Source: Gemmatimonadota bacterium (GTDB lineage: Bacteria > Gemmatimonadota > Gemmatimonadetes > Longimicrobiales > RSA9). From it: a stretch of 33,360 nt of DNA. Below are positions 10,872 to 24,945 of the stretch, in pieces. Numbering within the stretch: the first letter of the stretch is position 1; each line of letters begins with the position of its first letter. The notes under the pieces are model-generated. The model searched no databases. It worked only from the letters and a program-made list of their open reading frames with translations, and had not been told where the DNA came from. Location: assembly GCA_017881445.1 (NCBI GenBank), contig JADGQX010000018.1:1-33360 (forward strand), read 5' to 3'. The translations under genes and the position numbers were made by a program.

Positions 10872-10913
10872 AAGCCAGCCCCTTGGAGCGGGCACGCGCC
10901 AGGAAAACTGCTA

Positions 10914-10947
10914 TTCACCACAGAGGACACGGAGGACACGGAGGACA
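10914..10947. repeat. Solo arm of the ACCACAGAGGACAC-type foldback repeat
   Basis: The stretch starting TTCACCACAGAGGACACGG continues with two further ACACGGAGG-like 9-bp units. It is clearly related to the arms at 24783-24812 and 24880-24912, but no inverted partner is found within the gap, so it looks like a decayed or half copy. It lies in the leader of ROK regulator 1. Confidence 0.8.
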
Positions 10948-23299: not shown

Positions 23300-23308
23300 G
23301 AACCAAGT

Positions 23309-23482
23309 CTTACCGCCGAGGACGCCGAGGACGCCGAGAACGGCCGCCGAGAACTGCCCTTAATGGGTTCAACAGCCCTGCGTCCGCGTGCCGCCCGGGG
23401 GGTGCCGCCGGCGACCCGGGGCCGCCCGGTAGAAACAACAAAAAGGTGTTGCCTCGGCGTCCTCGGCGTTCTCGGCGGTAAG
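23309..23482. repeat. Foldback element with 31-bp ACCGCCGAGGACGCCGAGG arms
   Basis: Arms 23309-23339 and 23452-23482 are reverse complements with a single mismatch; each carries about three 9-bp ACGCCGAGG units and an outer CTTACCGCC end. The interior shares CCGCCGGCGACC (23405-23416) and an AAACAACAAAA tract with the element at 1481-1703. It fills the gnd-larA gap (23300-23505) and ends 23 bases before the LarA start, so it could affect translation of that gene. No coding sequence is seen in the gap. Confidence 0.92.
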
Positions 23483-23505
23483 ATGTGGTTTTCAGTTGGA
23501 GGCGT

Positions 23506-24771
23506 ATGGATGTGATTGGCAAAGGCTCGCTCGAGGTATCGCTCTCGGATGCCGAGGTGCGCGATATCCTCGCGGGGGCGCTGGCGGAGCTGCCCGTCGA
23601 TGGCAAGCGCGTGCTGGTGCTCATCCCCGACCACACGCGCCACGCGCCCATCCCCCTGTTCTTCCGCATCCTGGGCGAGCTGCTCCAGCCCCGCGTCAGG
23701 GCGCTGGACTACCTGGTGGCGACGGGCACCCACGCGCCCATGGAGCCGGAGCGGATCTACCGCCACGTGGGCATCAGCGCGCAGGAGCACCGGACGCTCT
23801 ACCCGAAGGTCCACTTCTTCAACCATGAGCACCTCAACCCGGATGCCCTCGCCACCATCGGCACCCTCGAGAGCGGCGAGGTCGGGCGGCTGACCAATGG
23901 GCTCTTCTCGCAGGACATCCCCATCACCATCAACCGCATGGCGGTGGAGTACGACCAGATCCTGATCGTCTCGCCCGTCGTGCCCCACGAGGCCATGGGT
24001 TTCGCCGGGGGCAACAAGTACTTCTTCCCCGGCATTGCCGGCCTCGACCTGGTCCAGACCTTCCACTGGCTCGCGGCCGTCATCACCAACCCCGTGGTCA
24101 ACGGCGTCAAGGACACACCCACGCGCCGGGTCATCGACCGCGCCGCGGAGTTCCTGCAGACGCCGCGCGTCTGCTTCGCCTTCGCCGTGGACCGGCGCCA
24201 CGAGCTCGCCTGCCTCTTCGCCGGCGAGCCCAGGGAGTCCTGGTCCCGCGCCGCCGACTACTCGGCCCGGCTCCACATCGCGTACCTGGACCGACCCTAC
24301 GGGCGGATCCTCGGCCTCACGCCGCCGATCTACGAGGAGATCTGGGTCGCCGGCAAAGCCATGTACAAGCTCGAGCCCGTCGTCGCCGAGGGGGGCGAGC
24401 TGGTCATCCACGGCGGCCACATCCGCGAGATCTCCTTCGTCCATGGCCGCGAGATCGAGCGCATCGGCTATCACGTGCGCGACTACTTCCTGGAGCAATG
24501 GGACCGGTTCGCCCACGAGCCCAAGCTCATCATGGCGCACTCCACGAACGTGAAGGGCATCGGCACTTTCAGCGGGGGGGTCGAGCGGCCGAGAGTCACG
24601 GTCACCCTGGCGACGTCGATTCCGCGTGCCACCTGCGACCGCATCAACCTCGCCTACCGCGACCTCGCCTCCATCGACATCGACGAGTGGCGCCAGGATC
24701 CCGATACCCTGGTGGTCGAGGAAGCCGGCCAGGTCCTCTACCGCCTCGGCCCCGCGCCCGCGGTCACATGA
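23506..24771 (+). CDS. LarA-family nickel-pincer 2-hydroxy-acid racemase/epimerase
   Basis: 421 aa. LarA enzymes use the nickel-pincer nucleotide to racemise or epimerise 2-hydroxy acids. Motifs: PDHTRHAP, GTHAPM with H76, then PHEAMGFAGGNKYFFPGIAG with H161 and K171, and H187; the spacing H161-K171-H187 equals that of H174, K184 (cofactor-linked lysine) and H200 of Lactiplantibacillus LarA. The usual SGGRK reads AGGNK, so this is a divergent subgroup. LarA homologues include a D-gluconate 2-epimerase, and gluconate and mannonate are C2 epimers. With gnd and a sugar kinase on either side, an aldonate epimerase is favoured over lactate racemase (inference). The ATG follows GGAGG at a short three-base spacing; GTG two codons on is possible. 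Confidence 0.85.
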   Translation: MDVIGKGSLEVSLSDAEVRDILAGALAELPVDGKRVLVLIPDHTRHAPIPLFFRILGELLQPRVRALDYLVATGTHAPMEPERIYRHVGISAQEHRTLYPKVHFFNHEHLNPDALATIGTLESGEVGRLTNGLFSQDIPITINRMAVEYDQILIVSPVVPHEAMGFAGGNKYFFPGIAGLDLVQTFHWLAAVITNPVVNGVKDTPTRRVIDRAAEFLQTPRVCFAFAVDRRHELACLFAGEPRESWSRAADYSARLHIAYLDRPYGRILGLTPPIYEEIWVAGKAMYKLEPVVAEGGELVIHGGHIREISFVHGREIERIGYHVRDYFLEQWDRFAHEPKLIMAHSTNVKGIGTFSGGVERPRVTVTLATSIPRATCDRINLAYRDLASIDIDEWRQDPDTLVVEEAGQVLYRLGPAPAVT

Positions 24772-24782
24772 ACGTCAACTTC

Positions 24783-24912
24783 ATTTCACCACAGAGTCAC
24801 AGAGGACACAGAGAACGGATGTTGTTGTTGTTAAACAACAAAACGGAATCCAGCGGCGTTCCTGTCGCTTTCGGCACGCCACTCCGTGTCCTCTGTGGCT
24901 CTGTGGTGAAAT
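24783..24912. repeat. Foldback element with ACCACAGAG-type arms and TTGTTGTT-A-AACAACAA core
   Basis: Left arm from 24783 and right arm ending 24912 are reverse complements over about 30 bp with two mismatches; each holds ACCACAGAG and CACAGAGGACAC units. The centre 24825-24841 is a 17-bp palindrome that is the exact reverse complement of the one at 1582-1598. It fills the gap between the LarA gene and the second kinase gene (24772-24945), about 30 bases before the kinase start. Confidence 0.92.
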
Positions 24913-24945
24913 AGCCTTTCAAGTCCTGGACAAGGGCAAACGAAC

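Follow-up and report, generated by a model that had tools for sequence, protein, structure and literature searches.

The two long foldback elements found in the window (the whole 33,360-nt stretch of DNA analysed here, from a Gemmatimonadota bacterium) are probably MITE-like, non-autonomous representatives of a family of tiny elements that in its complete form carries a GxxExxY gene (PF13366/TIGR04256, PD-(D/E)XK fold) between the arms. They would be gene-less copies of an apparently mobile and previously undescribed kind of element that is present in many phyla. Both window elements consist of two inverted arms with three tandem 8–9-nt iterons each, and correspond to the top two inverted repeats of the region in the inverted-repeat search, I1 (23301–23338 / 23453–23490; 38 nt, 92%) and I2 (24783–24813 / 24882–24912; 31 nt, 94%). 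The RNA folds reach -120.9 kcal/mol (z -8.7) for element 1 and -73.4 kcal/mol (z -10.3) for element 2, values that no shuffled sequence equals. The two foldbacks of the preliminary description are real and lie where it had placed them. The features of the window are the following:

23301–23490, no strand assigned: foldback element 1, G-type, gene-less (inverted repeat I1 and fold; one of 34 elements with G-type arms on both sides)
23301–23338, + strand: left arm of element 1, AACCAAGTCTTACC and three CGCCGAG iterons with a 9-nt period (from the sequence)
23453–23490, - strand: right arm of element 1, the left-arm site inverted (from the sequence and the inverted repeat)
24777–24918 (model match, weak flank; inverted repeat 24783–24912), no strand assigned: foldback element 2, A-type, gene-less (one of 27 elements with A-type arms on both sides)
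24783–24813, + strand: left arm of element 2, ATTTCACC and three CACAGAG iterons (from the sequence)
24882–24912, - strand: right arm of element 2, the left-arm site inverted (from the sequence)
10912–10947, + strand: A-type left arm standing alone, with part of the shared core (GATCAGTTGTGTT) after it

The extent given for element 1 includes the outer flank AACCAAGTCTTACC/GGTAAGATGTGGTT. No right arm was found for the solitary arm at 10912–10947, which is probably a decayed copy. The order of the genes is 6-phosphogluconate dehydrogenase, element 1, LarA-like, element 2 and PfkB kinase, with element 1 starting directly 3' of the stop codon of the dehydrogenase gene and element 2 placed a short way 3' of that of the LarA-like gene. 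When the insertion sites of the window were compared, the LarA-like gene was detected in one of 11 family relatives (47%). An Rfam covariance-model search of the window gave no matches.

At least 66 paired elements could be parsed in the fetched stretches of the genome, which bears out the initial view of one family of long foldbacks in many copies. Thirty-four of them are G-type, with CGCCGAG arms on both sides and the flank AACCACATCTTACC, and 27 are A-type, with CACAGAG-like arms on both sides and the flank TTTCACC. The other five (L031, L048, L049, L176 and L185) are hybrids in which the left arm is of the G-type and the right one of the A-type, perhaps recombinants between the two lineages. 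The length between the outer anchors ranges from 78 to 317 nt, and a core like GATCTGTTGTTGTTTAACAACAACAGATC is common to many elements. The motif CRCMGAGNNCRCMGAG has 206 matches in the genome against 9 for the reversed pattern, and the unit pairs CRCMGAGGACRCMGAG, with a GA linker, occur 88 times against none in the reversed control, a difference that is not due to chance. These pattern searches did better than a covariance model of the arms, which gave only 18 matches in the same genome because its first filter was loose. According to simple home-made gene calls, the median distance from the edge of an element to a stop codon is 15 nt (30 nt or less for 61 of the 73 adjacent stops), and the neighbouring genes are in tandem at 35 sites, convergent at 19 and divergent at 5. 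Several foldback families with differing words (CACAGAGGA, CAGCAGAGT and AACAGAGA) were seen in a relative, G029 (L196, L203, L208 and L215), where one foldback arm has grown to about nine iterons. Many contigs of this relative end in near-identical copies, which suggests recent amplification.

The gene that belongs to these arms is seen in copies where they stand farther apart. In one element of G029 the arms are placed about 600 bp from each other, and a GxxExxY gene is located exactly in the interval. A search with PF13366 found six genes in the genome of the window and more in its relatives, and inspection of the flanks revealed inverted arms around all six. Nearly all the GxxExxY genes of this genome and its relatives lie alone between inverted iteron arms, which are separated by tens of bases from the ends of the coding sequence. 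The copy on contig 413 (G000:C413, L253) has the ends CACCACATCCTACCGCCGAG...CTCGGCGGTGAGATGTGG, exactly the G-type ends of element 1, while the copies on contigs 198 and 78 have TTCACC(G/A)CAGAG ends, the end type of element 2, and the remaining three carry CGAAG words. Motif excess also goes with the gene: among the relatives in the order its median is 86 in genomes with GxxExxY and 13 in those without it (P 2e-8), and within two families the values are 92 and 17.5 (P 2e-4). Some GxxExxY frames (L253 and others) extend through the iteron arm before reaching a stop codon, and such read-through frames may explain database proteins with strings like RRPRRPR or TEDTEDTE. GxxExxY genes without arms of this kind were found on phage contigs (L355–L357), in Prevotella (L363) and in Treponema (L364). 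The GxxExxY gene of L354, an IMG/VR contig classed as viral, has ACAAAGA/ACGAAG iteron arms.

The same association extends far beyond the relatives of the genome. The exact 31-base A-type sequence is present in 74 stretches of named genomes from Deltaproteobacteria, Gammaproteobacteria, Betaproteobacteria, Acidobacteriota, Thermoanaerobaculia, Verrucomicrobiota, Fibrobacteres, Chloroflexi, a cyanobacterium, Gemmataceae, Sumerlaeota and others, in agreement with the earlier suspicion that the class is widespread; the arms are conserved and the interiors are not. Of 46 genomes of many phyla bearing this 31-base arm sequence, 35 have GxxExxY genes and 11 gave no match, though many are incomplete. 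Nearly all of the best 30 loci in these 46 genomes show inverted triple-iteron arms, with words that include CACCGAG, CGCAGAT, CGCAAAG, CACGAAG and CACGAAT. Fifty of 63 GxxExxY loci from many phyla, of which the cross-phylum ones were picked because their genomes carry the motif, lie above the 95% level of a null in which the upstream flank of one locus was matched with the downstream flank of another; the flanks were measured from the domain ends, since stop-to-stop ORF ends under-count because the ORFs extend into the arm. The iteron word follows the GxxExxY protein tree across phyla. With the words read by eye from the flanks, the last iteron base requires 1 change on this tree (shuffled mean 9.4, minimum 6), position 5 requires 8 (13.4 shuffled) and the whole word 33 (41.4 shuffled). 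Gene and word may co-track in this way merely through travelling together. In the openly accessible literature GxxExxY appeared in passing mentions only, and no paper linking it to repeats or mobility was found; a literature text search for the arm sequences returned nothing relevant. Two further arrangements were observed in distant hosts. In Chloroflexi (L107, L113 and L134) multi-spelling arms occur in direct arrays without inverted partners, and the gammaproteobacterial foldbacks L070, L079, L080, L097, L105 and L127 resemble bidirectional intrinsic terminators in having an A-run at their left border and a T-run at their right one.

Comparison of orthologous sites, occupied in one genome and empty in another, supports the probable mobility that had been supposed, both for gene-bearing copies in named isolates and for one foldback. 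A GxxExxY element is found in Bacteroides finegoldii between the stop codon of radA and the start of the next gene (an FAD gene), and the site is empty in Parabacteroides distasonis, where radA and the gene that follows it are 13 nt apart. In Sphingomonas parapaucimobilis another such element is placed between fabD and fabG, a site that is empty in S. paeninsulae and Rhizobium indigoferae (only about 30 nt). No target-site duplication is evident by eye at these two empty/filled pairs. Within genus g13, a foldback of G049 is missing from the corresponding intergenic site of five relatives. Other dispersed cassettes, e.g. GGGGCGCGATTCATCGCGCCC and GTCCGCCTTCGCGGACTC, were seen in G025 and G027 (L307, L312 and L319) where G049 has its foldback, together with a differently worded CGCGGAG arm at that place in the same intergenic regions. 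At a GxxExxY locus shared within one genus the flanks are 87% identical, the ORF is 68% identical and the arm words differ, indicating that the gene and both arms changed together.

According to the preliminary description, no change in one arm lacks its counterpart in the other, which was taken as a sign of selection for a long hairpin or of one arm being copied from its partner. In 23 aligned elements pairing is kept in 86% of the cells, but two-sided changes are confined to the columns that separate the G- and A-types, and in the linker pairs, which include 8 and 9 unpaired cells, no double change occurs. Within the G-type or the A-type the left/right identity at each position, whether in a unit, a linker or a flank, equals that obtained with shuffled right arms (for example, 0.15 against 0.15 for linker 1 of the G-type). 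The matched changes thus stand as a difference between the two types; within types the arms of the 66 elements vary independently, and five hybrids combine unlike arms. Selection for base pairing loses its basis with covariation restricted to type-diagnostic columns, and covariation as proof of RNA structure was rejected. Nor is ongoing arm-to-arm copying seen within types, yet the words shift jointly in both arms over long times. This independent variation indicates that the arms are two separately drifting copies of one site and not a stem held by pairing. They are complementary because they are inverted and of the same type, and as the words differ from lineage to lineage, a pair of examples that look unrelated will seem perfectly concerted. 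Two lineages of iteron ends therefore replace the concerted-change reading.

The complete form of the element comprises an inverted arm, one GxxExxY gene (about 125 aa) and a second inverted arm, about 450–500 bp in total, with each arm spanning about 30–40 nt and containing three tandem 8–9-nt iterons. The GxxExxY protein is predicted to adopt the PD-(D/E)XK fold, and the nearest solved structures are the Cas4 protein SSO0001 and other nucleases of the class (E 1.6e-3, probability 1.00). The catalytic E, D and ExK are near-invariant in these proteins. Each iteron word may be the recognition site of one element lineage, which would explain why the arms differ between lineages and match within an element. 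In the most economical reading, each GxxExxY protein would bind its own iterons at the two ends and cut the DNA there or at an extruded cruciform, after which repair or copying would spread both the gene-bearing copies and, in trans, the gene-less ones; the GxxExxY nuclease would then be the agent that moves the elements. A broader proposal, held tentatively and with slightly less than even confidence, is that GxxExxY proteins are the enzymes of unrecognised, phylum-spanning mobile elements of about 0.5 kb, in which a lone PD-(D/E)XK nuclease recognises tandem iterons and spreads gene-less foldbacks to hundreds of sites, the IVP/S23 elements (including rRNA intervening sequences) being a sister branch.

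A different role for the gene is suggested by the PF05635 four-helix-bundle "23S IVP" genes, abundant in the same genomes (seven in the genome of the window). In the relatives (L324–L353) these genes are flanked by inverted arms, built of tandem 7-nt iterons whose words are specific to the element (GGGGAAT, AGTGCCT, CGGTTAT and AGTCCTA), and most of 27 such loci lie above the null. Similar arms around unrelated genes mean that the architecture is wider than GxxExxY, which might itself be cargo. In that case the arms would define a more general mobile class that relies on the replication or repair of the host, or on some unknown factor, to move, and that takes either GxxExxY or four-helix-bundle proteins as its cargo, in the manner of 23S rRNA intervening sequences. 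The intervening sequence of Coxiella, a selfish element of 428 nt whose origin is unclear and whose terminal inverted repeats enclose an S23 ORF and form a 28-bp stem (PMC4990558), agrees with such an arrangement. However, the word classes are protein-specific (CRCNRAG-like 8–9-mers for GxxExxY and other 7-mers for IVP), which suits recognition by the encoded protein, and the cargo explanation is considered unlikely, though far from negligible.

The other alternatives leave the gene aside. Long 3' UTR hairpins, acting as terminators or mRNA stabilisers and kept by base-pairing selection, would suit the very stable folds, the short distances to stop codons, the few divergent sites and the terminator-like A-/T-run borders of some gammaproteobacterial copies, but such a structural RNA is hard to reconcile with linkers devoid of compensatory change, the independence of the arms within types, the tolerated hybrids, the partnerless direct arm arrays of L107 and L134, and the identical ends that flank GxxExxY genes; it is judged quite improbable. 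The conserved tandem iterons, and arms that vary as separate sites, could also be taken as sites to which a chromosome-organising or global regulatory protein of the IHF/HU type binds, as proposed for similar repeats of Geobacter metallireducens, whose published classes have the same layout (PMC2700814). This is very improbable in view of the differing words within one genome, each matching a gene-bearing element, the presence or absence of elements between relatives, and the agreement of the word with the GxxExxY phylogeny across phyla. Hardly any weight is left for REP/REPIN elements mobilised by a RAYT (a Y1 HUH transposase), the kind of partner first envisaged: the many copies and the intergenic palindromes beside stop codons are as in that system, but no Y1 transposase was found in the genome of the window (99.6% complete) or in the motif-rich G002 and G004, and the motif is absent from the flanks of 20 Y1 loci in relatives. 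The RAYT link was rejected on these grounds, with the reservation that a distant Y1 could be missed, and the partner is a gene of the GxxExxY nuclease family instead.

If the GxxExxY reading is true, abundant cross-phylum intergenic foldbacks, seen in databases as spurious proteins, would gain a gene partner and the GxxExxY family a function, and a testable route would be available to the old question of the origin of rRNA intervening sequences. It would also provide a second system, beside RAYT/REPIN and with a different enzyme chemistry, linking a tiny nuclease gene to palindromes that occur by the hundred at gene 3' ends. Both systems combine many short, palindromic, non-autonomous repeats with a few nuclease genes bordered by the same repeats, and both prefer the 3' ends of genes; in the elements described here, however, the enzyme is PD-(D/E)XK-like and not Y1 HUH, and the ends are triple iterons instead of single palindromes with a 4-nt tag. 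Classical DDE MITEs likewise are gene-less copies with the terminal inverted repeats of gene-bearing copies in the same genome, but here the gene between the ends is GxxExxY and not a DDE transposase, and the by-eye comparison of the two empty/filled pairs showed no evident target-site duplication. The 23S rRNA intervening sequences share a small ORF between terminal inverted repeats and a sporadic, horizontally spread distribution, and the IVP genes of these genomes also have tandem-iteron arms. The elements studied here differ from them in their gene (GxxExxY), in iteron words unlike those of IVP and in their intergenic position; the two of the window lie between protein genes, not inside a 23S rRNA gene, and are without an S23/IVP ORF. 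The nearest published description is that of the "class 2 global regulator binding sites" of Geobacter metallireducens (Aklujkar et al. 2009; PMC2700814), which that paper takes to be confined to the one genome and to be possible sites for IHF/HU; it recognises no gene partner, mobility or cross-phylum spread. According to the same paper, class 2 sites have three tandem TCTCCGTS[Y] repeats, the reverse complement of the CACGGAGA-like unit, and are mostly paired on opposite strands at a variable distance, a layout shared by the elements of the window, while the class 3 sites, with five tandem heptamers, resemble the IVP-type arms.
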